This document shows positions 20,680 through 33,314 of a stretch of DNA of 33,314 nucleotides, in pieces (positions within the stretch are counted from its first letter, which is position 1; each line of letters begins with the position of its first letter). The DNA is taken from positions 1 to 33,314 of the forward strand of contig CAHJWP010000008.1 in assembly GCA_903642255.1 (NCBI GenBank). Reading direction: 5' to 3'. The notes under the pieces were generated by a model that saw only the letters and a program-made list of their open reading frames with translations, was not told the DNA's origin and made no database searches. This stretch comes from Sphingomonadaceae bacterium (GTDB taxonomy: Bacteria; Pseudomonadota; Alphaproteobacteria; Sphingomonadales; Sphingomonadaceae). Both the position numbers and the translations under genes were made by a program.

Positions 20680-23600
20680 TCAATGGAAATCTCGCGACTT
20701 GGGCAGGATGCGGACGCTGCGCGGGTGCCCGTAAGTGCGCGAGTAACCAGGGTGGAGGTCTTCATCGGCTTGCGTTTTCTGAGGAGTGGCATCGTGAGTC
20801 TTTGACAGGAGGTCGAGTTCTGCCGTGCGGTCGTGTATATGAGTCGCCATTAGATGGACCACCCCTTCCGAACTGCGCTGCAGCTCGCCTTCGACCAGCA
20901 TCAGACGCGATGCCATGATATTTTTGCGGTAGCTTTCAAACAGCCGCGCCCAAATGATGACGTTGGTTACGCCGGTTTCATCCTCAAGCGTGACGAAGAT
21001 GGCGTTGCCCTTACCGGGACGCTGCCGGACGAGGACGATGCCGGCGGTTTTAACCTGATCCCCATGTCTGGCGTTGGATGTACCGGCGCAGGTCTGCACG
21101 GCTTCATGGTCGAAAATCGGCCGCAGAAATTGCATCGGATGCGCTTTAAGCGACAGATGTATAGTCTGATAGTCCGCCGCGACCTCCTCGGCTTTCGACA
21201 TGACCGGCAGATTGACATTCGGCTCAATGCCAAGTTCGCTGGCGTCGGCGGCGGCAAATAGCGGCAGGACATCAGACGGTGTTCGACGCGCTTCCCAGAG
21301 TGCGGCGCGACGGTAGAGACCGATCGAGCCGTATGCATCGGCATCGGCAAGCAGGCATAGTGCGCGCTGGGGTAATTTGCCTGTTCGCGCCAGTTGTTCG
21401 ATACTCGTGAAGAGTCGGTTGGCTATGATGTCTTGGCCCCATGCTGCCCGAAAACCATCGATCTGACGAAAGCCGAGACGCAAAGCGAAATCGCCCTTTC
21501 CACGGCATTCAAGGCTATTGTCCCAGTCGCTGAAGTTCACGTCGACGGGCAGCACCTCGACACCATGATCGCGCGCGTCTCTCACGATCTGCGCCGGAGC
21601 GTAGAAACCCATCGGCTGGGCATTGAGCAGCGCGGCTGCAAACACCGCCGGATAGCGGCATTTGATGTACGACGATACCCAGACCAGTCGCGCGAAGGCC
21701 AGTGCGTGGCTTTCGGGAAAGCCGTAACTGCCGAAGCCCTCGATCTGCCTGTAGCAGCGCCGGGCGAACGCCTCATCGTAGCCCCGCCGTACCATGCCGC
21801 CGACCATCTTGGCCTCGAACTGCTCCATGGTTCCGAGATTGCGGAAGGTCGCCATCGCGCGGCGCAGTTGATTAGCTTCCGAGGGGGTGAAATCGGCAGC
21901 GACGATGGCGAGCTTCATCGCCTGTTCCTGAAACAGTGGGATGCCCAGCGTCTTGCCGAGCACGTCCCGCAGTTCGTTCGGGTCATGCGGCGACGCCGGT
22001 GAGGGGAAATCGTGCGACTCGAGACCCTGCCGTCGCCGCAGATAGGGGTGGACCATGTCGCCTTGGATCGGGCCGGGCCGGACAATTGCGACCTGAATGA
22101 CTAGATCGTAGAATTCTCGCGGACGCAGGCGCGGCAGCATGTTCATCTGCGCTCGGCTTTCGACTTGAAACACACCGACACTGTCACCCCGGCACAGCAT
22201 GTCAAAGACATCGGAAGCATCTTCAGGTACGTTATCAAGTGAGTATTGCTTGCCTACATGCGTTTCGATCAGTTCAAACGCCTCGCGGATGCATGACAAC
22301 ATACCGAGTGCCAGCACGTCGACCTTCATCAGGCCCAGTGCATCAATGTCGTCCTTGTCCCATTCAATGAAGGTGCGGTCAGCCATCGCGGCGTTGTGGA
22401 TCGGCACAGTTTCGTCGAGCCGATCCTCGGTTAGTACGAAGCCGCCGACGTGCTGCGACAGGTGGCGTGGGAATTTGAGAATTTGGCCGACTAAATCTGC
22501 GAGCCGGGCGATTTCCGGTGAGTCAGGATCGAAGCCGGTTTCGGTGAAACGCTCGCGCTCCATCTTGTCGGAAAAACTGCCCCAGATGGTGGTACTCAGC
22601 CGTGTCGTGACATCTTCGGTAAGACCCAACGCTTTGCCGACTTCGCGGACCGCGCTGCGCGGACGATAGTGGATCACGGTGGCAGCGATTCCTGCACGCT
22701 CGCGACCGTAGCGGCGATAGATGTACTGCATGACCTCCTCGCGCCGTTCGTGTTCGAAATCGACATCTATATCGGGCGGTTCGCGGCGTTCCTCCGAGAT
22801 GAAGCGGGAAAAAAGCAGATTATTCTTAAGTGGATCGACTGCTGTTATGCCAAGCACGTAACAGATCGCCGAATTGGCCGCCGATCCTCGTCCTTGACAT
22901 AGGATGCCTTTGCCTCGTGCAAACGCGACAATATCGTGAACAGTAAGAAAATACGTAGCGTATTGCTGCCGTTCGATTATGGCGAACTCGTCGGCGAGCA
23001 ATGTTTTCAGCCTGTTCGGAATGCCCTCCGGCCAGCGTTCGTGCGCCTTGTCTAAAGTCAACGTTTCAAGCCAGCCTTGCGGCGTGTATCCCGGCGGAAC
23101 TGGCTCATGCGGGTATTCATACCGCAACTGGCCAAGGTCGAACTGGATGCGCCCAAGCAGTGTCTGCGTCTCGCCGATGGCATGTGGCGCATCGGCAAAC
23201 AGCCTTGCCATTTGTTCAGCGGATTTCAGATGGCGCTCTGCATTGGCAGCAAGCAGACGTCCGGCGCACTGGATGGTGCGCCTTTCGCGAATGCAGGTCA
23301 GGATGTCATGGAGCCGACGTCGATCGGGCGTTGCGTAAAGTGCGTCGTTCACGGCGATCAGCGGCAGCAATGCGGCGCGGGCCTGAGCCAAGCGCTGCTG
23401 AAGCAGCCGTCGGTCGCGCCCGCCATGATCCATGGTGGCGCCAAGCCACACTCGTCCAAGTGCGGCTTGGCGTAATATATTTAACAATGAAGCGGAGCCG
23501 CCTGCCCCCGGCATGACGATCAGCAACAAATCATCACAATGGTCGAGCAGATCGTCGAGATGCAGGATGCAGCCGCCCTTTTCGGCGCGCAGATTGCCGA

Positions 23601-23919
23601 GAGTCAGCAGTCGCGTCAGCCGCCCCCAGCCACGCCGCGTTACCGGATAGGCAACGATGTCCGGAGTGCCGTCCCCGAAAATCAGCCGAGCGCCAGTGAT
23701 GAGCTTGAAGTCGACCTTGCCTAGCCCGGCTTTGGCAGCGTTCTCACTCGCTTCTTTCAGCGCCGACCATGCGCGCACCACCCCAGCAACTGTGTTACGA
23801 TCCGCAATACCTATGCCGCTGTGACCGAGCGACAATGCCTCTCCGATCATATCGGATGGATGCGATGCGCCGTGTAGGAATGAGTAGTTAGTCGTAGCGG
23901 CAAGTTCGGCGAAGATCAC
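20680..23919 (-). CDS. dnaE2: Error-prone DNA polymerase III alpha subunit DnaE2 (ImuC)
   Basis: The translesion polymerase of the ImuABC mutasome, 1079 residues, normal for the family. In order: an N-terminal PHP domain in which the usual His-x-His is replaced ('TTNYSFLHGASHP', residues 9-21), so its metal centre is probably inactive, as in other DnaE2; the polymerase core with 'GRGSAANS' (343-350) and the catalytic Asp383/Asp385 in 'PPDIDVDF'; a third acidic residue in 'MKVDVLALGM'; and a C-terminal OB fold ('GIVLVRQRPGKGNAIFVTLE'). It starts with GTG at 23919, overlapping the imuB stop as GTGA. It works with ImuB after SOS induction to copy damaged templates. Base composition is lower in GC than the flanking genes. 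Confidence 0.95.
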   Translation of the reverse strand: MIFAELAATTNYSFLHGASHPSDMIGEALSLGHSGIGIADRNTVAGVVRAWSALKEASENAAKAGLGKVDFKLITGARLIFGDGTPDIVAYPVTRRGWGRLTRLLTLGNLRAEKGGCILHLDDLLDHCDDLLLIVMPGAGGSASLLNILRQAALGRVWLGATMDHGGRDRRLLQQRLAQARAALLPLIAVNDALYATPDRRRLHDILTCIRERRTIQCAGRLLAANAERHLKSAEQMARLFADAPHAIGETQTLLGRIQFDLGQLRYEYPHEPVPPGYTPQGWLETLTLDKAHERWPEGIPNRLKTLLADEFAIIERQQYATYFLTVHDIVAFARGKGILCQGRGSAANSAICYVLGITAVDPLKNNLLFSRFISEERREPPDIDVDFEHERREEVMQYIYRRYGRERAGIAATVIHYRPRSAVREVGKALGLTEDVTTRLSTTIWGSFSDKMERERFTETGFDPDSPEIARLADLVGQILKFPRHLSQHVGGFVLTEDRLDETVPIHNAAMADRTFIEWDKDDIDALGLMKVDVLALGMLSCIREAFELIETHVGKQYSLDNVPEDASDVFDMLCRGDSVGVFQVESRAQMNMLPRLRPREFYDLVIQVAIVRPGPIQGDMVHPYLRRRQGLESHDFPSPASPHDPNELRDVLGKTLGIPLFQEQAMKLAIVAADFTPSEANQLRRAMATFRNLGTMEQFEAKMVGGMVRRGYDEAFARRCYRQIEGFGSYGFPESHALAFARLVWVSSYIKCRYPAVFAAALLNAQPMGFYAPAQIVRDARDHGVEVLPVDVNFSDWDNSLECRGKGDFALRLGFRQIDGFRAAWGQDIIANRLFTSIEQLARTGKLPQRALCLLADADAYGSIGLYRRAALWEARRTPSDVLPLFAAADASELGIEPNVNLPVMSKAEEVAADYQTIHLSLKAHPMQFLRPIFDHEAVQTCAGTSNARHGDQVKTAGIVLVRQRPGKGNAIFVTLEDETGVTNVIIWARLFESYRKNIMASRLMLVEGELQRSSEGVVHLMATHIHDRTAELDLLSKTHDATPQKTQADEDLHPGYSRTYGHPRSVRILPKSRDFH

Positions 23920-25436
23920 GCGAAAAGCCCATGCAGGTACCAGTCCGGCATTGACTTTTCGACGCCATACAGTCCATGCCGAAATAGCCAGAACCGCCGT
24001 CCCCGCTTATCCTCGACGCGGTAATAATCACGGGTCAGCCCTTTACCGCTGCGGCGTTTCCACCACTCGGCAGCGATACGCTCCGGGCCTTCGGCGCGTA
24101 TCACATCATGGTACAGCCGTCGCCACTTGAACCACAACGGCGACCCATCCGGAACGGCAGCCATCACTTCGATGCGCTGCGGGGGATCGAACATATGAAG
24201 CGGGCGCAGCGGCGGTTCGCCAGTTTCGAGCACCGGCCACGACACAGGGGGAGACTGTACTGCCAATTGCAGCTCGAACGCAGCCTGTTCGGGGATGTGG
24301 CTGTCACCGGCTGCGAAACGCCGTATCCGGTTATGTCCCAAGCGTGTTGTTAGCCGATTGATCAGGGCGGCTAATTGGGCATCAGTAGCCGTACTTTCTT
24401 CCAATGGCAGCTGGTGCGGAATCATCGGTTCGGTCAGCGGTATGGCAAGTCGGATCAGGTCATAGCCGAAGCCAGGGTCGAGTGGATCGCTTAGCGTATC
24501 GATCCGTTCACGGAACAGGCGAGCAATGACCTTGGGATCACGTGTCGGCTGGACGGTTTCAACCGTAAGGCGCGCGACATGGCCATCGCTCCGGAACAGC
24601 GCTGCCTCGAACCGCCGGCCACCGCACCCGCGTTTGAACAGGACAGCCTCGGCCTTGCACAATAGCCAATCAATTGTGCCGAGCGCCGCGTCGATATGCA
24701 ACACCGGCTCGGTAAAATGCTTTTCGACCTGCACGTCAGGCGAGTGACGACGTGGGGTGATACGGACTTCCTCGTCGCCGAGCAGTCGCGACAGCAGCAC
24801 AGGCATTGCCGCCCCGAAGCGCGCCGCCAAAGGTTCCCGCGGCCGCGCCGCCAGATGACCGATGGTTTTCAACCCAGCACGGCATAACGCTAAATGGATG
24901 TCGGCATCCAACCTGAGCGCCGTCACCGGTAGGTCATGAATGTTGTCTCCACCGAATGTGGCCAGCGCCACAGCAGCATCGGGTGTATGTGCCAACGCGG
25001 TGATGGCGCTGATGCCCTGACGAATAAGCCGACGTTGCAGATCGGCTACAAGGCCAGCCTCTTCCCTGAACTTATGCGCGCAACCGGTGATGTCGATGAC
25101 AATCCCTTGCGGCGGATGGGTCGCCACCATGGGAGAATAGCGATCACAGGCGTCTGCCAGCCAGTCGAGCAGAGCCGCATCGGCAGCCGCATCGTGCTCG
25201 AACGCCGCAAGTTCGGGGAGTCGCGCCCGCGCATCGGCCAGCGTCAACCCCGGCGCGATGCCGGCCGCGCAAGCGCGTGAGTCGACCGCCGCGAGGCGGA
25301 TCGATCCACGCACTTTTTCAGTCAGTGCAAAGGGTGTTTCAGGCGACGCGCCGCGCGCCCTCAACAGCCGTTCCGCTGCCAACAATGGCAGAAACACCGC
25401 CAGATATCGGCGCGTCCCTGAACGTTCTTCGGTCAC
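23916..25436 (-). CDS. imuB: ImuB, catalytically inactive Y-family polymerase homologue
   Basis: Hub of the SOS mutasome that links DnaE2 to the beta clamp. The 506-residue product opens with 'RRYLAVFLPLLAAERLL'; an active Y-family enzyme would have the acidic D-x-D/F-F motif there, so catalysis is lost, as expected for ImuB. 'QLPLEE' at about residues 342-347, followed by 'DAQLAALINRLTTRLG', sits where ImuB carries its clamp-binding hexapeptide. The C-terminus 'WYLHGLFA' is typical. I chose the GTG at 25436 because GGAG lies 7 nt upstream. This gives a 98-nt overlap with imuA. ATG 25457 and the upstream frame to 25523 are alternatives. Confidence 0.92.
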   Translation of the reverse strand: MTEERSGTRRYLAVFLPLLAAERLLRARGASPETPFALTEKVRGSIRLAAVDSRACAAGIAPGLTLADARARLPELAAFEHDAAADAALLDWLADACDRYSPMVATHPPQGIVIDITGCAHKFREEAGLVADLQRRLIRQGISAITALAHTPDAAVALATFGGDNIHDLPVTALRLDADIHLALCRAGLKTIGHLAARPREPLAARFGAAMPVLLSRLLGDEEVRITPRRHSPDVQVEKHFTEPVLHIDAALGTIDWLLCKAEAVLFKRGCGGRRFEAALFRSDGHVARLTVETVQPTRDPKVIARLFRERIDTLSDPLDPGFGYDLIRLAIPLTEPMIPHQLPLEESTATDAQLAALINRLTTRLGHNRIRRFAAGDSHIPEQAAFELQLAVQSPPVSWPVLETGEPPLRPLHMFDPPQRIEVMAAVPDGSPLWFKWRRLYHDVIRAEGPERIAAEWWKRRSGKGLTRDYYRVEDKRGRRFWLFRHGLYGVEKSMPDWYLHGLFA

Positions 25437-26100
25437 GGTCCCACTCCACACGGGCATCGAACCCGGCAATTCCTCCGCGATGGCGCAACAGGCTGATGTC
25501 AAACGCTGGAGGTCCCGGCGCATTGCCTACCAGCGCTCGTGAGGGCGCTCCGCTGATCCGCCACCGTGTCTGGGCTGCGCTCGGCACGGGATCGACGCCT
25601 GAGCGCACCACCAAGGTCATTACCCCTGATCGTGCCGCCGCCAACGCGAGTCGGCGAGACGTAGTCAAGTCAAGCAATGGAGCCTTACCCCACGGTTCAA
25701 GGATCACCGCGCCTACTCCACCGCAATTAATGATATCGGCACCGGCCCGTAACAATGAAAGCGTATCTGGTGCTGTCACCAGCAAAACGGCAGCGGGGTC
25801 GGCTCCCAGTTCAATTAAACCTAGAGGGTAGAGTCGCCCGTCACGCTGCTCATTTCGCTCTTCCCGGACCCAAAAGACTGGTCTCGCTAGACAGGCGCGC
25901 AAGATCAGCAGCAGAGCAAAGCCTGCTGCCGCACAGCGATCTTCGGGCAACCCGGCAAAAATCTCGTGCAACGCTGCTCGTGCCAGTCCGCCCCTCAGCA
26001 ATGCATCGCTCTTTACCGCGCCGGTTTCAACGACAGAGATTTTGCCGCTGAGCTTTGTCCTTCCGCCGAATGCGGGGTTCAATGAGGGCGAAAAATTCAT
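25339..26100 (-). CDS. imuA: ImuA, RecA-like SOS mutagenesis protein
   Basis: Small RecA-related partner of ImuB and DnaE2, 253 residues. Recognised by 'ALHEIFAGLPEDRCAAAGFA' near residues 43-62, the family's conserved entry motif, then 'VFWVREE', 'YPLGLIELGADPAAVLLV' and 'GAVILEPWG'. The start was set at ATG 26100 because the LexA box and promoter lie immediately upstream; the open frame continues to 26205 but would then contain those elements. It heads the imuA-imuB-dnaE2 operon and should be induced by DNA damage. The C-terminus is Gly/Val-rich and overlaps imuB by 98 nt. Confidence 0.9.
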   Translation of the reverse strand: MNFSPSLNPAFGGRTKLSGKISVVETGAVKSDALLRGGLARAALHEIFAGLPEDRCAAAGFALLLILRACLARPVFWVREERNEQRDGRLYPLGLIELGADPAAVLLVTAPDTLSLLRAGADIINCGGVGAVILEPWGKAPLLDLTTSRRLALAAARSGVMTLVVRSGVDPVPSAAQTRWRISGAPSRALVGNAPGPPAFDISLLRHRGGIAGFDARVEWDRDRRTFRDAPISGGVSAIVGSGTAVEGARRVA

Positions 26101-26102
26101 AT

Positions 26103-26117
26103 GTTCTTGGTGTGTTC
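26103..26117. promoter_or_regulatory. LexA (SOS) box, alphaproteobacterial type
   Basis: GTTC at 26103-26106, seven bases, GTTC at 26114-26117, an exact match to the GTTC-N7-GTTC direct repeat bound by alphaproteobacterial LexA. On the imuA strand it reads GAACACACCAAGAAC and ends 2 nt before the ATG at 26100. It overlaps the -10 element of the predicted promoter, a position suited to repression. Confidence 0.88.
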
Positions 26118-26142
26118 TTACCGCCATCCGTATGAGAGTCAA
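26115..26142 (-). promoter_or_regulatory. Predicted imuA promoter
   Basis: On the minus strand, TTGACT (26142-26137), a 16-nt spacer, and TAAGAA (26120-26115). The -10 element overlaps the LexA box. Transcription would begin about 8-10 nt before the ATG at 26100, so the mRNA would be nearly leaderless if that start is correct. Confidence 0.5.
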
Positions 26143-26529
26143 CGGCGGCACAAAGGTTGGTTTGCCTGCGCCGCATGAATGATGCTCCCTTGCCGAGGCA
26201 GGCAATCGGACGGATGATCCAGAGCTCTGCCTTGAGATGCATATCGCCTGGGCAGACGGTGCAACTCGCGTCGGGAACTCTAATCCGATACCGCTTCACC
26301 TCCGAATGCGTTGCGCGCCATCCGGCCACGCTGGACTGCATTTCAAAACGGAGATTTGGACCTCCAGCGCGCGATCCTATTTCAGCGCTTAGTCCACTAG
26401 TCGTACACAGCGGTTCTAGTTGCCTCAGCATGCCGCGTAGTTTGCCGCGCCTAACCCGAGGATTAGCCACCACGCCCGCACCGAGTTTGAAGAGTAGCAC
26501 CTAGGCGCGACCATTGCTAACGTTGGCAG
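26143..26529. other. Intergenic stretch between divergent imuA and SLOG genes
   Basis: About 390 bp. Open frames on both strands (for example 26157-26504 on +) have no recognisable motifs and Arg/Ser/Pro-rich composition. No tRNA, inverted terminal repeats or attachment-site duplication is evident. It must contain the promoter of the SLOG gene, but I cannot place one with confidence. Confidence 0.5.
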
Positions 26530-28314
26530 ATGCAAGGTCCACATACGCGGCAGGAACGTGTCTTGAGCGGCGTGCCCACGGTCCCCTTATGTCTGACCAT
26601 AGGCGTCACAGGCCATCGTGATTTGTCCGGGGCTAACGAAGGTCTGCGTCCGCGACTTGAACAGGTCCTCTGCCGCCTGCGTGATGCGGCCGGACAGGAG
26701 GGCATTGCTCAGAGCTTTGGACCAGCACCTATGCAAATCAGGCTGGTCTGCCCGCTGGCGCAGGGGGCTGACCAGATCGCCGCGGCCATCGCGCTCGACC
26801 TCGGATATGACCTGCATGCCGTCCTACCGTTTCGACGCGACGATTATGCTGCCGATTTCGTCGACACCTACCATGCTGCAACTTATGCTACGCTTCTCGC
26901 CCGCGCTTCACGTGTCCTCGAGTTGCCGTGTCGGCGCGGGGAAGTACCGTCGGCGTACGCACTTGCCGGACGCGCGACGATCGCGCACAGCGACATTCTC
27001 ATTGCGGCGTGGGACGGCCTGCCAGCCCGCGGTGCGGGTGGCACCGCGGAAGTCGTCGAGCATGCGCTTCGCCTCGGCCTACCTGTGATCCATGTCCCGC
27101 TCGATGCTAATCAGCCTATCCGACTGATATGGAGCGCGCACGAGCCCCACCTGCTGCAGACCCGAGTCGAAGAAATCTCGGCCCGGCAACTGGACGATGC
27201 GAGTTACATCGTACTGATCGACCGGCTGCTCGCGCCGCCGGTAGATATCAATGAACGAGGGCATCTGACACAGTTTCTTGCCGAGCGCCAGCGTCGGTTC
27301 AAGCTACGTATGGAATATCCATTACTGCTCGCCGCCGCCGGAGCGCGCCGCCTGAGGCGTTCGGCGCTCCTGGCGGCCCCGTATCTCACGACGGATGAAC
27401 CCTCTTCCGGCAGCCCGGGGGACGTAACAGGTGACGTGAACGTGTGGCGGGCGGCGTACTTCTGGAGCGACGGGCTCGCGGCGCACTTCGCTCAGAGCTA
27501 CCGCAGCGGTCATGTCTTCAACTTCTGCGCCGGCGCACTCGCGGTACTGCTTGGCCTGTCGGGGCTGGTGCTGCCGGAGGTCAAGCTATGGCTCGCGTTT
27601 GCCGAACTGGCGGTCATCGGTGCGTTCATTATGAACACCCGCGTCGGCGTCGCACGGAACTGGCATCGCCGCTGGCTGGATTACCGCCAACTGGCTGAGC
27701 GGTTGCGGCCAATGGCGAGCCTGTCGGCGGTCGGCATTGCCCAGCCCGACCGAGCACCTGTAACGCGCCGCGCCACCAGCTGGGTCGACTGGTACGCCGC
27801 CGGCATCTGGCGGAGCATCGGCATGCCGGCCGGGGAGCTCACCCGCGACGTTGCCGGGCTTACGCAGGCAATCGTCACGCGGGAGCTTCTCCCCCAAGTC
27901 GCCTACCACCGTACCAGTGCGGCAACTGTCCACCACCTCGATCACGCGCTGCACCGTGCCGGCACGGTGCTGTTCGCCATCTCCTGCCTTAGCTGCGCGG
28001 CGTTCATCGGCGCCTATCTCATCGATCACGCATGGACGGTCGCTCACGCGGCAGACTTCGTCGCCCTGTCGGCAGGCCTGCCGGCGATCGGCACGGCCTT
28101 CTTCGGCATTCGCGTTCAAGGCGACTTCGCCGGGACGGCCGCCCGCTCCGAAGTCACCGCCGACCACCTTGCCGCTGTCGCCGCCGCACTCGAGGCGCGG
28201 CCAACTACATTGTCGCGCACCGCCGACGGCATCGAGGCCGCGGCGCGCGCAATGTTCGCCGACCTCGGCGAATGGCGGCTGTCGCACCAGCAGCGCCAGC
28301 TAGAACTGACTTGA
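26530..28314 (+). CDS. SLOG-domain protein with SLATT-like four-helix membrane module
   Basis: A 594-residue protein. Residues 20-235 look like a SLOG/LOG-type Rossmann domain: 'IGVTGHRDL' (24-32), 'CPLAQGADQIAA' (74-85), 'LPFRRDDYAADF', and 'DILIAAWDG...GGTAEVVEHAL' (155-180), the nucleotide-binding G-G-T loop. Residues 305-560 hold four hydrophobic helices (about 328-349, 352-369, 477-498, 509-527) in two pairs, with 'NWHRRWLDYRQLAERLRP' between the pairs, as in SLATT/DUF4231 proteins. SLOG-SLATT proteins are proposed nucleotide-sensing, pore-forming immunity effectors (Burroughs, Aravind and colleagues). Start uncertain: ATG 26530 has no clear RBS, whereas TTG 26563 has AGGA 7 nt upstream and would lose 11 residues. 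Followed after 47 bp by a protease gene. Confidence 0.75.
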   Translation: MQGPHTRQERVLSGVPTVPLCLTIGVTGHRDLSGANEGLRPRLEQVLCRLRDAAGQEGIAQSFGPAPMQIRLVCPLAQGADQIAAAIALDLGYDLHAVLPFRRDDYAADFVDTYHAATYATLLARASRVLELPCRRGEVPSAYALAGRATIAHSDILIAAWDGLPARGAGGTAEVVEHALRLGLPVIHVPLDANQPIRLIWSAHEPHLLQTRVEEISARQLDDASYIVLIDRLLAPPVDINERGHLTQFLAERQRRFKLRMEYPLLLAAAGARRLRRSALLAAPYLTTDEPSSGSPGDVTGDVNVWRAAYFWSDGLAAHFAQSYRSGHVFNFCAGALAVLLGLSGLVLPEVKLWLAFAELAVIGAFIMNTRVGVARNWHRRWLDYRQLAERLRPMASLSAVGIAQPDRAPVTRRATSWVDWYAAGIWRSIGMPAGELTRDVAGLTQAIVTRELLPQVAYHRTSAATVHHLDHALHRAGTVLFAISCLSCAAFIGAYLIDHAWTVAHAADFVALSAGLPAIGTAFFGIRVQGDFAGTAARSEVTADHLAAVAAALEARPTTLSRTADGIEAAARAMFADLGEWRLSHQQRQLELT

Positions 28315-28361
28315 CGGTGCGGCGGCAGACAGCGCAGAATCGTAGCGGGGAAGGGTCTGAG

Positions 28362-30167
28362 ATGCGTTTGCTGGGGGCGATTGTCGTCGCGCTTGCCCTG
28401 CTCGTCGGCACGTCCGCTCGGGCCGACGGCGATGGGCCGTTCGGGATAAGTGGCGTCGCCCTTCCGCCGGGTGGAGCGTTCGAGGCGGCGGCGTGGCGGC
28501 GGAATGGCAAGCAGATCCTGACGATCGACGAGAACAACATGCTGCTGTTCTGGGACGCGGCGTCGCGGCGGCTGATCGACACGATGACCCTCGGCACCTT
28601 GCCGCCGCGACCGACCGGCAGCGGCGCGCCGCGGCGCGTGACGCTCCGGATCAGCCCCGATAGCATGTTCGCTGCCGTAACAGTGCTGCCCTCGGGTCGT
28701 CCGGCAGTTACCCTTCTCGTCGATCTTGTCGCCGAGAAGGTAACGGAAACAATCGACCGGCCGGCGTTATTCTGGATCCCCACGGGCGTCGTCGCGGGGC
28801 CGCACGCCGGGTGTACGGTGGCGTGCGACTTTGCTGTAATCGATCCGCGGACGACGCACGATTCGGCCCTAGGTATTGGCTTCGGCGACGGCCGGGTTGT
28901 TGCGGCCATGCCCGACGGCAGTCGCTTCGTCTCCGTCGTGGCGGTGGGCGGCAGGCAGGAACTCGTCGTCTGGACAACGACGACTTGGACGCCGCTGGTC
29001 CATGTGCCGCTCGCGTCCGATGTGGTGGTCGAGGTCGGATTCGATCAAGACGGAAGCCACGCCTTTGCCAGGCAGGCGACGCCGCAGGTGGTGGTCGTCG
29101 GCGTCGCTGACGGCCGTGTTGAAACGTCATCTTTGCCGCCCCAGGCAGCGGGTATGGCCTTCGCCACCGACGTTGATAGGCGGCGCGTCATGACGCCGCT
29201 CGGACCGATACCCTTTGACAGCAATAAGATGTCTGCACGTATGGACTTCTTCACCTTCTACGCCGCCGACCCACGATACGGCGCGATATACACCTTCAAC
29301 GACGGTTTGGCGGCGGCGATCGGGGCGCGACCCGCGGCACCAAATGCATTTCCCTGGCAGGTCGAGCTGCAGTATCGCGCGCCGCCCGGCAGTGGCTTCT
29401 CGCCGTTGGTGCTGCATAATTGCGGCGGCAGCCTGATCCGCGCCGGTTGGGTGCTGACCGCGACGCACTGTTTTCTGACCGCCGACAACCTCTTGCGCTC
29501 GGACGCCGAGGCGCAGGCGCACACCGTCGTCCGCGCCGGCTCGACTGAGCTTGATGCCGAAATGAAAAATTTCGACGTCGTTGGCGTCTACATCCGGCGC
29601 TGTACCCAAACTGCAAGCAATGACTGCTTCCACGACTATGATCCGGCCGCGCAGCCGCCGGTGCCGCCGCTCAATGACATCACGCTCCTGCGGATCGTGC
29701 CCCACGTCGAGCCGGTCGTTGGGCGCAGCTTCACCTTACAGGCGGTGCCTACCGGTCAGATCAAGCCGATCCGCCTTCCCGCGCCGAGCGTGGATATCCG
29801 CCCACCATCGCCGGTGACGATGACCGGCTGGGGTGCAACGTCGGTCGGAAATGCGCAGGAGCGCGTCATGTCGGCGTCGCTTAACCGGATCGATATCACA
29901 GTCATGCCGCGCGAGGTGTGCAGCCGCCGTCACGGGTTCGGTCCGCTAGCCCCTACCCTGATCTGTGCCGGCTCGGCCGACGATGCGCAGCTCGCGTGCA
30001 AGGGAGACAGCGGTGGTCCTCTGGTCGCCGACGTCGCCAAACGTCCGGTGCTCGTCGGCATCGTGTCGTGGGGCAACTGTACGGGCGGCCCGGCGATATA
30101 CACCAGCGTTGCTGCCTTCGTACCGTGGATCAACGCGACCATCGCCGCGGCCGAGGCGCACCGGTGA
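28362..30167 (+). CDS. Secreted beta-propeller / trypsin-like serine protease fusion
   Basis: A 601-residue exported protein. A signal peptide (residues 1 to about 21, 'LGAIVVALALLVGTSARA') precedes a WD40/propeller-like region (about 25-310) with repeats such as 'NNMLLFWDAASRRLIDT' and 'LVVWTTTTWTPLVHV'. The chymotrypsin-fold S1 domain (about 318-595) has the full triad: His369 in 'LTATHCF', Asp439 in 'LNDITLLRI' and Ser550 in 'GDSGGPLV'. The residue at the base of the S1 pocket (position 189) is Leu544, so it should not have trypsin specificity. 'AIGARPAAPNAFPWQV' stands where proteases carry I-V-G-G. AAGGG lies upstream of the ATG. It shares a GTGA overlap with the next gene. Confidence 0.85.
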   Translation: MRLLGAIVVALALLVGTSARADGDGPFGISGVALPPGGAFEAAAWRRNGKQILTIDENNMLLFWDAASRRLIDTMTLGTLPPRPTGSGAPRRVTLRISPDSMFAAVTVLPSGRPAVTLLVDLVAEKVTETIDRPALFWIPTGVVAGPHAGCTVACDFAVIDPRTTHDSALGIGFGDGRVVAAMPDGSRFVSVVAVGGRQELVVWTTTTWTPLVHVPLASDVVVEVGFDQDGSHAFARQATPQVVVVGVADGRVETSSLPPQAAGMAFATDVDRRRVMTPLGPIPFDSNKMSARMDFFTFYAADPRYGAIYTFNDGLAAAIGARPAAPNAFPWQVELQYRAPPGSGFSPLVLHNCGGSLIRAGWVLTATHCFLTADNLLRSDAEAQAHTVVRAGSTELDAEMKNFDVVGVYIRRCTQTASNDCFHDYDPAAQPPVPPLNDITLLRIVPHVEPVVGRSFTLQAVPTGQIKPIRLPAPSVDIRPPSPVTMTGWGATSVGNAQERVMSASLNRIDITVMPREVCSRRHGFGPLAPTLICAGSADDAQLACKGDSGGPLVADVAKRPVLVGIVSWGNCTGGPAIYTSVAAFVPWINATIAAAEAHR

Positions 30168-31096
30168 TCGTCCGTCTCGCCGCCACCGCAACCCTCGCCC
30201 TCGTCGCGAGCTGTGCGACGGTTCCCACCGTCGATTACCACCAGCTTGGCCCCGGTGCGCGCAACGACAAGTGGGTGCCGTTTCATCTGACCGACTCGAT
30301 CGTCGTCATCGGGGCACCTATCGCCAAGGCAGCCGACGGCGCGGCAGCGCCGCCGGTCGATCTGTCTCCCGTCGTTGTCCGCTGCCCCGGCGGCGTGTGC
30401 GGTGCGGTCGCGGTCGCGGCCATCCCGACCGACTTCCGTGGCGTGCTCTATGGCCTCGAACCGCGTAGCCGACGGCTGGTCAGCACGATTCTCGTGCCGA
30501 GCTATGTGTCGAACTCACTTCGCCTCAAGGCGTTGGCCGTCGAGGCGAAGGACCACCGACTCGAAGCGATCAACACGGTCGCCGCGCTGGCGTCGGGGGC
30601 TGCCAGGCTTGCGGACAAGGGAACCGACCTGTCCAATCCCGACCCGCTCGATCGGACGGCGCAGCTCATACTGCCGGTGACGATCGCCCTCGCCGACCTG
30701 CGGTGCACCGGCCCGACATGTCGATCGGCAGCGACCCCGCGGCTACCGCGCAACCCGACGTGGACCTATTCAATCGAGTTTCGCGACGATCCGGCGGAGA
30801 GCGGACTCCTGGCTCGGCAGGCGGTCGACACGGTCCACGCCGCAATGGTCGCGTCGGCCTGTCGGCCGGTGCGGATCATGCTCTATCAGGCCGATCAGAA
30901 AGTGACGGTCGTTCTCGACGTCGAAGTCGCAGATCCCGACTGGCTGATCACCGTGCCGTTCCCGACCAAGGGTGCGATGACTTTCCACTCCCTGTGCGGG
31001 GTCGATGTTCAGGCGCAGGCGATAACCGACATCGGCGTCGACGTGATGGCAACCGCGTTCGTCAACGGCGTCGAAGCCGTTGCCAGGCAGAAGTAG
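30164..31096 (+). CDS. Predicted lipoprotein of unknown function
   Basis: A 310-residue protein that I do not recognise. It starts with GTG at 30164, overlapping the stop of the protease gene. The N-terminus 'RLAATATLALVASC' ends in a lipobox (V-A-S-C, Cys17), so it is probably lipid-anchored in the outer or inner membrane facing the periplasm. The rest is soluble with mixed alpha/beta character and several cysteines ('RCPGGVCG', 'LRCTGPTCRS', 'SACRP', 'SLCG') that could form disulfides. Coupling to the secreted protease suggests a partner, inhibitor, substrate or membrane tether for it; nothing in the sequence settles which. Confidence 0.75.
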   Translation: MIVRLAATATLALVASCATVPTVDYHQLGPGARNDKWVPFHLTDSIVVIGAPIAKAADGAAAPPVDLSPVVVRCPGGVCGAVAVAAIPTDFRGVLYGLEPRSRRLVSTILVPSYVSNSLRLKALAVEAKDHRLEAINTVAALASGAARLADKGTDLSNPDPLDRTAQLILPVTIALADLRCTGPTCRSAATPRLPRNPTWTYSIEFRDDPAESGLLARQAVDTVHAAMVASACRPVRIMLYQADQKVTVVLDVEVADPDWLITVPFPTKGAMTFHSLCGVDVQAQAITDIGVDVMATAFVNGVEAVARQK

Positions 31097-31099
31097 CTG

Positions 31100-31339
31100 T
31101 TAGGGCTTAGCGGGAGCCGCCGTCGACTTGCTCGCCGTCGGGTCGGCGTTGTGCAGATCGCCGCCGGCCGGCGTCGCGTCCGTTGCCGGCGGGGCGGAGG
31201 CCATGGTCGTCGCGGCGGGATCGGTCGCTGGCGTCGTCTTCTGGGTAGTCATGGTCGTTCTCTTGGTCGGATCGGGATTGTGGCAGCCGGCGACGGCGAT
31301 TGCGGCCATGATGGCGACAGTCAGATGCTTGCTGTTCAT
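31100..31339 (-). CDS. Small Thr/Pro/Ala-rich lipoprotein
   Basis: A 79-residue protein. 'MNSKHLTVAIMAAIAVAGC' is a compact signal peptide ending in a lipobox (V-A-G-C). The mature part is low-complexity, rich in Thr, Ala and Pro with scattered Asp and Lys, and is probably unfolded. ATG 31339 was preferred to the upstream in-frame start at 31363 because it opens the signal peptide and has AGGGA about 10 nt upstream. It converges with the 310-residue lipoprotein, the two stops only 3 bp apart, and lies on the same strand downstream of the TIR gene. Function unknown. Confidence 0.7.
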   Translation of the reverse strand: MNSKHLTVAIMAAIAVAGCHNPDPTKRTTMTTQKTTPATDPAATTMASAPPATDATPAGGDLHNADPTASKSTAAPAKP

Positions 31340-31407
31340 AACGAATTGATCCCTGCTAGACAATCTCGTTACTTTGCCGGTTCGCGCGACAGTTGCAAGA
31401 TAAAGCG

Positions 31408-33314
31408 CTAATCTTGTCCCTCTAAGCGCCGCGCGATGGCGGCGAAGCCCGCTGCCGTCCGCACAGGATCGAGCAGGGGGTCGCTGCCGATCAGCAGGAT
31501 GCCAGCGTCGTGGGTGGCATAGGCGCGTGTCAGGGCGGCGAGGGCCGGTGCCGCTTCACCGCGCTGGGCATGGACCTGTGCCTGCTGATAGGTCGTGCTG
31601 TCGCCGCCATCGGCGACCATAGCATTGAATGCGATGGTAGAACCCGCGCGGTCGCCCAGCCGCGCGTGGGCGATCGCCTGCCCGCGCAGCCGCTCCCACG
31701 TCTCGGGCTCGGCGGCATATTCGGTGGCCGCCGCGGGAATGTCTCCCTGCAGCAACAGGGCATCGCCAATCGCCGAGTGAACGCCGATGATCGCTGGATT
31801 GAGCGTAAGCGCGCGGCGCAGCGCGACGATCGCCTCGGGATAGCTGCGGGCGACGATGAGTGATAGGCCCAGCGTCTTGAATGCCCGCGCATTAAAGGGG
31901 TCGCGCCGCACCGCCTGCTGGATCGCGGCGAGCCCGGGGCCGACCGCGCCAGTGCGGCAGGCGAACAGGCCATAGCGCAGCAGGATGTCGGCATTGCCGC
32001 TGCCGGTGCGCAGCGCGAGGTCGTATGCCCGCCGGGCACCGGCAATGTCGAAGCGTCCATAAAGCAGGACGCCGGCGAGGCTGCTCTGCGCCTCGGCCGA
32101 GTCGGGGGCCAGCGCGACGGCGCGGCGTGCGGCCGCCTCGGCGGCGTCATAGGCCGCGCGCTGCGCCTGCGACGCCGTCAGGAACTGGTTGGCCATCGCT
32201 AGCAGCGCCCGCGCCCGCGCCGCATGCGCCTCCGCGAAACGCGGGTCGGCGGCGACGGCGGTGTCGAACATCACCAGCGCCGACCTCATCCCTGCCTCGC
32301 CTATCCCGGCGTCAAGCGCCGCCCGGCCGCGGAGGTAGGCGTCGTTCGCCGCTGCGCTCGCCGTTCCCGCTCGACCGAGTGCAGCGACGGCGCGGTCGGC
32401 GAGCCGGACCCTGAGCGCTGCGGCGACTGCTTCGGCAATCCCGCGCTGCACGGCAAAGACGTCGGTCAGGTCACGGTCGTAGGTGTCGGACCAGCGCTCG
32501 AACCCCGACGCCGCCTCGACCAACTGCGCGCTGACGCGAACCCGGTCACCGCTGCGCCGGACGCTGCCGTCGAGGATGAAGGCGACGCCGAGCTTGGCCC
32601 CGATTGTGCTACTGGTGTCCCGGCTGTTCTTAAATTTGAACGACGATGTCCGTGCGGCGACCTGCAGCGTGTCAATGCCGGCCAGTGCGCTGAGGAGCTC
32701 CTCCGACAGGCCGTCCGAAAAATAGGCTTGGGCCGGATCGGCGCTGAGGTTGGCGAATGGCAGCACGGCGATGCTGTTGGCCGGCGCGACGGCGGCGGCT
32801 GGACGTCGACAGTCGATGCCGACCGAGCACAGGACCGTTCGCGGCAGCAGGATCAGGCCACCGACCGAAGCAGCGATAATCGCCAATACCACCGACCATC
32901 GGCGGCGGCGGCGGCGAGGCGTCGCGCGTGCCACTGGCGCGTCGAGGCCGGCGACCATCGCCCGCGCCGCAGCAAGGAGATCGAGTAGGCGAGGGTCGTC
33001 GCGGTCTCCGCGCCAATTCTCGAGCGGCAGCAGCTGCCGCTGTCCAAAGCCAAGCGGCGGCTCGACACGGTCGATCCGAACGGGAAGATAGACGCCGCGG
33101 CGAACGGCGTGCGCGGCCTCGTCGTGGACGAAGTGCCCTTCGGGCCCGACCGCAGATTTGCTCCACACGACGATCACGCACGCCGCGGCGTCAAGTTCTG
33201 TCTGAATCGCCTGCCGCCAGATCACGCCACCAGCGAGCGCGACATCCCACCAGACCGTCAGACCTGCCGCATCCAGTGCGTCGACGAGTGATCGTACACG
33301 CTCGCGATCTTCTC
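31408..33314 (-). CDS. TIR / TolB-like / TPR membrane protein, 5'-truncated by window edge
   Basis: The frame is open to the window end, so the N-terminus is missing. Order: a TIR domain ('RVRSLVDALDAAGLTVWWD', 'GVIWRQAI', 'CVIVVWSKSAV', then 'GHFVHDEAAHA', whose Glu at about 33118-33120 occupies the NADase catalytic position); an Arg-rich stretch and one membrane helix ('WSVVLAIIAASVGGLILL'); a TolB/FlgO-like domain ('SIAVLPFANLSADP', 'FILDGSVRRSGDRVRVSAQL'); and a C-terminal row of TPR repeats ending at the stop. This architecture recurs in alphaproteobacteria, often annotated as adenylate-cyclase-like TPR proteins. The TIR part would be cytoplasmic and the TolB/TPR part periplasmic. It could be a signalling or conflict protein; function unproven. 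Confidence 0.85.
   Translation of the reverse strand, partial: EDRERVRSLVDALDAAGLTVWWDVALAGGVIWRQAIQTELDAAACVIVVWSKSAVGPEGHFVHDEAAHAVRRGVYLPVRIDRVEPPLGFGQRQLLPLENWRGDRDDPRLLDLLAAARAMVAGLDAPVARATPRRRRRRWSVVLAIIAASVGGLILLPRTVLCSVGIDCRRPAAAVAPANSIAVLPFANLSADPAQAYFSDGLSEELLSALAGIDTLQVAARTSSFKFKNSRDTSSTIGAKLGVAFILDGSVRRSGDRVRVSAQLVEAASGFERWSDTYDRDLTDVFAVQRGIAEAVAAALRVRLADRAVAALGRAGTASAAANDAYLRGRAALDAGIGEAGMRSALVMFDTAVAADPRFAEAHAARARALLAMANQFLTASQAQRAAYDAAEAAARRAVALAPDSAEAQSSLAGVLLYGRFDIAGARRAYDLALRTGSGNADILLRYGLFACRTGAVGPGLAAIQQAVRRDPFNARAFKTLGLSLIVARSYPEAIVALRRALTLNPAIIGVHSAIGDALLLQGDIPAAATEYAAEPETWERLRGQAIAHARLGDRAGSTIAFNAMVADGGDSTTYQQAQVHAQRGEAAPALAALTRAYATHDAGILLIGSDPLLDPVRTAAGFAAIARRLEGQD

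Follow-up and report, generated by a model that had tools for sequence, protein, structure and literature searches.

Several of the described systems closest to the locus analyzed here couple a TIR domain to a partner that responds, or is predicted to respond, to nucleotides. In Thoeris, according to the available portions of the papers cited here and below, a TIR enzyme produces the nucleotide that a SLOG or macro protein then receives (PMC11204291, PMC12847820); in type I Thoeris the SLOG domain of ThsA binds 3'cADPR (3' cyclic ADP-ribose; PMC11204291). Where a system contains TIR domains, SLATT is predicted to act as its nucleotide-responsive, pore-forming membrane effector (PMC7159879, PMC9503650). 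In the portions of the literature on TIR systems that were searched, the messengers are intracellular and the named triggers are mostly phage components inside the cell. We have analyzed a 33,314 nucleotide stretch of Sphingomonadaceae DNA (GCA_903642255.1, CAHJWP010000008.1, forward strand), called the window below; it is an entire contig of an assembly estimated to be 71.3% complete. A first-pass annotation, made from the sequence alone, had proposed that three of its genes form an envelope conflict system. Our survey ties the first of these genes, which encodes a SLOG protein, to a TIR gene, and the second, which encodes a predicted exported protease, to a gene for a TIR-TPR receptor.

The three genes lie on the same strand, and the ORF (open reading frame) coordinates confirm the spacing first reported for them. 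P1, a SLOG-SLATT-like membrane protein of 594 aa (26530..28314, +), is followed after 47 bp by P2, a predicted exported trypsin-family (S1) protease of 601 aa that starts with ATG at 28362 (28362..30167, +). The P2 gene overlaps by GTGA with that of P3, a predicted lipoprotein of 310 aa with a GTG start at 30164 (30164..31096, +). The fourth gene, which faces them, encodes P4, a protein with a TIR domain, a transmembrane (TM) segment and TPR repeats (31408..33312, -); 634 of its residues are readable and its 5' end is lost at the contig end. Like type I Thoeris, as covered by the source, this set pairs a TIR protein with a SLOG-fold partner (PMC11204291), but P1 lacks SIR2 and has a membrane part, the TIR protein has a TM segment and TPRs, and a trypsin gene is near. 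Type II Thoeris, in the portions consulted, likewise combines TIR with a nucleotide-binding-type membrane partner (PMC11204291, PMC12847820), whereas the binding fold of P1 is SLOG rather than macro. P1 thus corresponds neither to the SIR2-SLOG ThsA of type I nor to the TM-macro ThsA of type II.

The association of these genes was examined in 249 genomes of the family, which are related to one another. P1 relatives occur in 60 of them, and the 63 P1 loci of these 60 genomes were surveyed for neighbours. Locus genes were called by a custom G+C-frame caller; it breaks down where G+C is low (such loci were redone with plain ORFs) and it missed the trypsin of locus L071. Since the profiles were built from the surveyed loci, they necessarily match their own founders, and several neighbourhoods stop at contig ends. 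A TIR_2 match is present in all 60 P1-positive genomes, as against 77 of the 189 P1-negative ones (Fisher P 1.4e-19, uncorrected for relatedness). In 42 of the 63 loci P1 has a TIR gene no more than 8 kb away; chance would give about one. Trypsin genes are near P1 in 19 loci, 17 of which also have the TIR gene, and 13 loci have none of the tested partners within 8 kb.

Viewed from the protease the association is closer. P2-like trypsins were found in at least 26 of the 249 genomes, a lower bound since the search missed the trypsins of G204, G120 and G116 that were later found by profile (L058, L063, L067). Of the 26 genomes 23 also carry P1; P1 is within 7 kb of the trypsin in 17 and a TIR-TPR gene within ~5.2 kb in 21. 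No TIR-TPR gene is near the trypsin in G001, G020, G072 (where the contig ends), G186 and G232. At five loci (L143-L147) the trypsin has no P1 nearby and is still beside a TIR-TPR gene. The same partners recur although gene order, strand and neighbours vary from locus to locus. Chance does not explain the association of P1 with the trypsin. Of the two, the SLOG protein goes with TIR and the exported protease with the TIR-TPR receptor. The link between P1 and the trypsin that had been proposed is therefore retained, and we judge the conflict-system setting likely, the set having the look of an immunity or cell-death system directed at the envelope. The three genes as a unit are not retained: P1, a P2-like trypsin and P3 stand together at two loci only (the window and L057), P3 being rare, and the gene that does stay constant, coding for a TIR protein, lies outside the annotated trio. 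The annotation had also staked its proposal on co-occurrence; P3 and most P1 copies do occur independently, the trypsin does not.

The assignment of P1 is based on structure comparison, since the sequence-based family searches gave no SLOG match and a profile of 31 P1 relatives found only a chance match among solved structures. An AlphaFold model built on the alignment of these 31 relatives has a predicted local distance difference test score (pLDDT) of 90.5 and a predicted template modelling score (pTM) of 0.89. Its top Foldseek match is YpsA (2nx2, E 1.4e-4), with which VIA aligns it at Z 16.0 and 2.4 Å over 156 residues (P1 20-196); DprA (Z 13.6, residues ~19-236) and ShosA (Z 12.3) follow. 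LOG-type proteins, molybdenum-cofactor-carrier proteins and PpnN rank lower, and TRPM channels lower still (Z ~7.7). As modelled, residues ~20-235 (26587..27234, +) are a SLOG fold, in agreement with the domain first described in P1, and GxTGHR, GAD and GxGGT motifs are conserved among the 31 relatives. No SIR2 or macro match was found in P1 by Pfam.

The membrane part of P1 (residues 303-593; 27436..28308, +) is predicted to be SLATT-like. DUF4231 matches residues 311-393 with E 1.3e-3 and 19.6 bits against a Pfam cut-off of 24.7, and SLATT_1 scores 18.3 bits against an NCBIfam cut-off of 41. Another family member, at L063, also stays under the DUF4231/SLATT cut-off (20.7 bits), and a relative from Caballeronia exceeds the Pfam one (30.9 bits). 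In the model, long helices span 303-347, 349-376, 441-498 and 507-531, four of them membrane-like, and hydropathy at the threshold chosen gives three clear membrane segments. The four helices and the SLATT domain first attributed to P1 are thus found in part: the model agrees on the number of helices where hydropathy does not, and the SLATT resemblance is present at scores that, for the window protein, are below the cut-offs.

P4 matches TIR_2 at residues 1-104 of its readable frame (E 5.3e-14; 33001..33312, -, start missing) and also has Pfam TPR matches. Hydropathy places a TM segment at 139-157, and since a run of Arg precedes it, the positive-inside rule suggests that the TIR domain is cytoplasmic and the TPR part outside. 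Five of the ten aligned P4 relatives have an SRR motif immediately ahead of this segment, and the motif resembles an (internal) twin-arginine signal. Glu65 of the P4 frame falls in a [WF]VxxE motif and is shared without exception by the ten aligned P4-type TIR proteins; we assume that the Glu of this motif is the TIR catalytic residue, and the conserved residue in P4 is thus a putative catalytic Glu. In a separate alignment, made for the TIR-FHA protein of L050 and not for P4, the corresponding Glu aligns with those of SARM1 and AbTIR. The absence of a catalytic Glu from P4-type TIRs had been suspected, since their WWDxxIxGG motif lacks one; this was a misplacement, the presumed catalytic residue being the conserved Glu of [WF]VxxE.

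The first reading of P2 was of a secreted protein with a beta-propeller and an S1 protease domain. The protease part is well supported: Pfam Trypsin matches residues 320-590 (29319..30131, +) with E 5e-40, and the S1 triad is intact, His369, Asp439 and Ser550 being invariant across eight aligned trypsins. The N-terminus of P2 is hydrophobic, and the protein is probably exported. By a custom rule, 20 of 29 trypsins have signal-like N-termini. Two residues before the Cys of ACKGDSGGP, P2 has Leu in place of Asp; by the usual numbering this speaks against a strict trypsin specificity. Five P2-like relatives have the R-IVGG-type activation site of zymogens, which is missing from P2 itself. The propeller is partly supported. 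The N-terminal region (residues 23-318; 28428..29315, +) resembles the N-terminus of a propeller-caspase protein by profile (E 1.7e-9; best of 200 shuffles 0.56), and an earlier test with the whole-protein profile gave a weak 8.0 bits. However, a TIR protein (L131_00) scores about equally in the same profile comparison (2.6e-9), and the similarity of P2 may therefore be generic to propellers. The structural model of P2 is poor overall (pLDDT 61.7), with two confident sheet blocks at residues 40-121 only.

P3 has a lipobox, VASC, whose Cys (Cys17) aligns with a Cys in its relatives. It was first called a Cys-rich lipoprotein; the lipobox bears out the latter term, and with seven Cys in 310 residues the former is generous. 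The family library searches gave no match within cut-offs for P3. Strong matches to it are found in 3 of the 249 family genomes (the window, L057 and L110), each directly after a trypsin gene, and P3 is missing at the remaining trypsin loci. A distant relative at L112 (G190, same genus) lies on a 6.3 kb contig with no trypsin, TIR or P1 in view. Downstream of P4 and on its strand is a small lipoprotein-like ORF of 87 aa (31100..31363, -). The order at L057 matches that of the window: trypsin and P3 are followed by genes for a small lipoprotein and a TIR-TPR protein in the facing orientation. At L057, L101, L106, L109 and L147 the TIR-TPR gene adjoins small ORFs whose products have a lipobox-like Cys.

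Among relatives in the family, the trypsin gene at some loci belongs to a longer set. At eight loci (L043, L052, L057, L058, L105, L107, L110 and L147) it forms an operon-like run with genes for two caspase-fold proteins (Peptidase_C14), the larger of which has a propeller-like N-terminus. By the same custom rule, 8 of 8 CASP1 and 6 of 10 CASP2 proteins have signal-like N-termini. No Peptidase_C14 match was found in the window genome, at its estimated 71.3% completeness. Beside P1 in 6 of the 63 loci are genes for a TIR-FHA protein and a Ser/Thr kinase, often with PP2C, which may provide a phospho-signalling input to the P1-TIR module; other P1 loci have a different TIR type. P1 or P1-like genes stand beside TIR-FHA and kinase genes at L045, L047, L050, L060, L061 and L070. 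A family of ~355-730 aa proteins (c24) is near P1 at five loci (L066, L067, L118, L138, L139). TPR-S proteins (c21) at L054:6341-7918, L058:10861-12504 and L070:7741-9531 are weakly similar to the P1 profile, and the TPR-S match of the L058 copy is below cut-off.

A scan of genome contigs found a single close relative of P1, in a Polymorphobacter sp. record (68% identity). P1 is not confined to the family. Relatives occur in 9 of 289 genomes of a class sample and in 15 of 349 of a phylum sample, the latter count including the window genome and family members; one P1-positive genome of the phylum sample, G752, was left out of the neighbourhood survey. Three relatives were found among plasmid records and none among phage records. 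Outside the family a TIR gene is near P1 in 5 of the 17 loci examined. On the Caballeronia plasmid pSBC2-4 (L164), genes for a DUF4231 protein related to P1, a TIR protein and an nSTAND1-WD40 protein stand in a row, and a TPR-S/cyclase-like gene is close to this row.

Upstream of P1, on the opposite strand, the window holds genes for a DnaE2-like polymerase and an ImuB-like protein identified by Pfam (20680-26205, -), with a possible ImuA-like ORF within the cassette that has no Pfam match. At L036 the P1 gene is likewise near genes that cluster with the DnaE2 and ImuB genes of the window. The G+C content drops from ~0.70 to 0.56-0.68 between 20 and 31 kb.

Some further systems bear comparison with the set as a whole; the likenesses hold for the portions of the sources available. 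Type IV Thoeris, in which TIR is found with proteases (PMC12847820), recalls the loci of those relatives that hold caspase-fold genes; the caspase-fold proteins of these relatives look exported, however (all eight CASP1), and the window genome itself, as far as its 71.3% completeness shows, does not fit this type. In Hachiman, AVAST, Lamassu and DRT, nuclease-protease pairs join a trypsin-like protease to an immune system, but the protease of those systems is part of a fusion with an immune enzyme and is paired with a metallo-beta-lactamase (MBL)-type nuclease, whereas here it is a separate protein with a signal-like N-terminus (PMC12799240). The predicted SLATT conflict systems place the SLATT domain near TIR, trypsin or caspase genes (PMC7159879, PMC9503650). 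They are, as far as these sources describe them, GTPase-centred or phage TIR-SLATT pairs, in contrast to the exported trypsin/caspase set and TIR-TM-TPR protein found here. We found no description in the open-licence literature of an exported trypsin/caspase set beside TIR-TM-TPR and SLOG-SLATT genes. Burroughs 2015, which reportedly predicted SLATT-containing conflict systems by comparative genomics, may list such sets. SLOG, SLATT and TIR systems have already been predicted in print, in the portions consulted, and the new element is the exported protease arm.

The reading that we prefer, at a rough probability of 0.45, is a module that signals from TIR to SLOG/SLATT and has an exported protease arm; it probably senses events at the envelope, and it is called Thoeris-like because the conserved pair is a TIR protein and a SLOG membrane protein. 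P4 would cross the inner membrane, the TIR domain facing the cytoplasm and the TPR part lying outside. There the exported P2 would share a compartment with the TPR part, held or regulated by P3 and accompanied in other genomes by the putatively exported caspase-fold proteases. P2 might report an envelope event such as attack by a phage or toxin, or damage, perhaps by cleaving the P4 receptor or a ligand. Action or binding of the protease would then trigger the P4 receptor, although the order of these steps is a guess. The trigger would cluster the P4 TIR domains, which would produce a messenger derived from nicotinamide adenine dinucleotide (NAD); its binding to the SLOG domain of P1 would lead the membrane part to open a pore or otherwise harm the membrane, with growth stop or death as the outcome. 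Of all this, the SLOG fold, the SLATT-like match, the protease and TIR domains and the association of the genes are observed, while export, topology and the catalytic role of the conserved TIR Glu are deduced from sequence.

Several observations weigh against this reading. The window P1 falls under both the Pfam and the NCBIfam cut-offs for SLATT. Among the P4 relatives, L057 and L062 are below the TM threshold and L059 and L054 have no TM stretch in the alignment. Nine of the 29 trypsins lack a signal-like start by the custom rule. There is no TIR gene within 8 kb in 21 of the 63 P1 loci, some of which are on short contigs. PADLOC gave no match for P1 at E up to 1, nor for P2 or P3, and P4 matches only the TIR parts of PADLOC models. 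A scan of 71 non-system neighbours, all from L032-L053 and out of 122 listed, matched seven PADLOC models with one member each, and these loci are therefore not obvious defence islands. Trypsin is absent from all 17 P1 loci examined outside the family and, as the family counts show, from the vicinity of most P1 copies within it, and the module can therefore do without the protease arm. The protease arm and the TIR-SLOG arm may also be separate systems.

This last point can be put as an explanation of its own, in which a cytoplasmic TIR-SLOG/SLATT module and an exported trypsin/caspase system share a neighbourhood and travel jointly but exchange no signal. It is the strongest of the alternatives, though unlikely. 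Besides the scarcity of trypsin near P1, it draws on the TIR-P1 pairs that occur without trypsin outside the family and on the pairing of P1 with TIR-FHA and kinase genes or with another TIR type. It does not account for loci such as L143, L145, L146 and L147, where P1 is elsewhere and the trypsin stays beside the TIR-TPR type, often at ~0.2-0.4 kb; this placement suggests a link between the trypsin and the TIR-TPR receptor.

The preferred reading, a TIR-to-SLOG/SLATT module with a protease arm, could be carried further. In the Toll pathway of Drosophila, trypsin-family proteases act outside the cell, a membrane-spanning protein has its TIR domain inside, the ligand is cleaved and the TIR is a scaffold. 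Here an exported trypsin, which in other genomes has the zymogen-type R-IVGG site and follows putatively exported caspase-fold proteases, might sense trouble in the envelope and trigger a membrane TIR receptor, and an NAD-derived messenger might then gate a SLOG-controlled pore. We regard this parallel as doubtful; the likeness is in layout only, homology is not claimed, and it would reflect convergence with animals and not descent.

Alternatively the protease could itself be the weapon, the trypsin and any caspase-fold partners attacking invaders or competitors outside the cytoplasm. P3 would then inhibit or anchor the protease, and the TIR-SLOG pair would control the attack or support it through cell killing. 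That all three strong P3 matches directly follow a trypsin, and that five trypsins have zymogen-type sites, would fit such a role. However, the remaining trypsin loci have no P3, the window trypsin has no such site, and secretion past the envelope is not indicated; we consider this explanation distinctly unlikely. The TIR domain might instead be a scaffold that makes no messenger, with the SLOG domain of P1 sensing some other nucleotide, for example as a stress-controlled channel. The ligands of the SLOG superfamily are varied, and Ion_trans_2 potassium-channel-like small genes near P1 in 13 of the 63 loci (e.g. L042:7760-8209, L047:8030-8548) fit a role in ion homeostasis. Invariance of the expected catalytic Glu, together with the presence of TIR_2 in every P1-positive family genome, speaks against a mere scaffold and makes this explanation very doubtful. 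That P1, P2 and P3 are unrelated genes brought together by chance or shared ancestry in a lower-G+C island is highly improbable, since the partners recur despite differing orders, strands and neighbours, and with TIR neighbours far above the chance expectation, even though the G+C drop is island-like and the counts come from related genomes and are not corrected for the tree.

If the TIR-to-SLOG/SLATT module with its exported protease arm is as proposed, these bacteria would be able to watch their envelope and to relay an alarm inward by means of an NAD-derived messenger. The locus would then offer a compact system in which to test the prediction that SLATT domains form pores, as well as a bacterial comparison for signalling from proteases to TIR domains.

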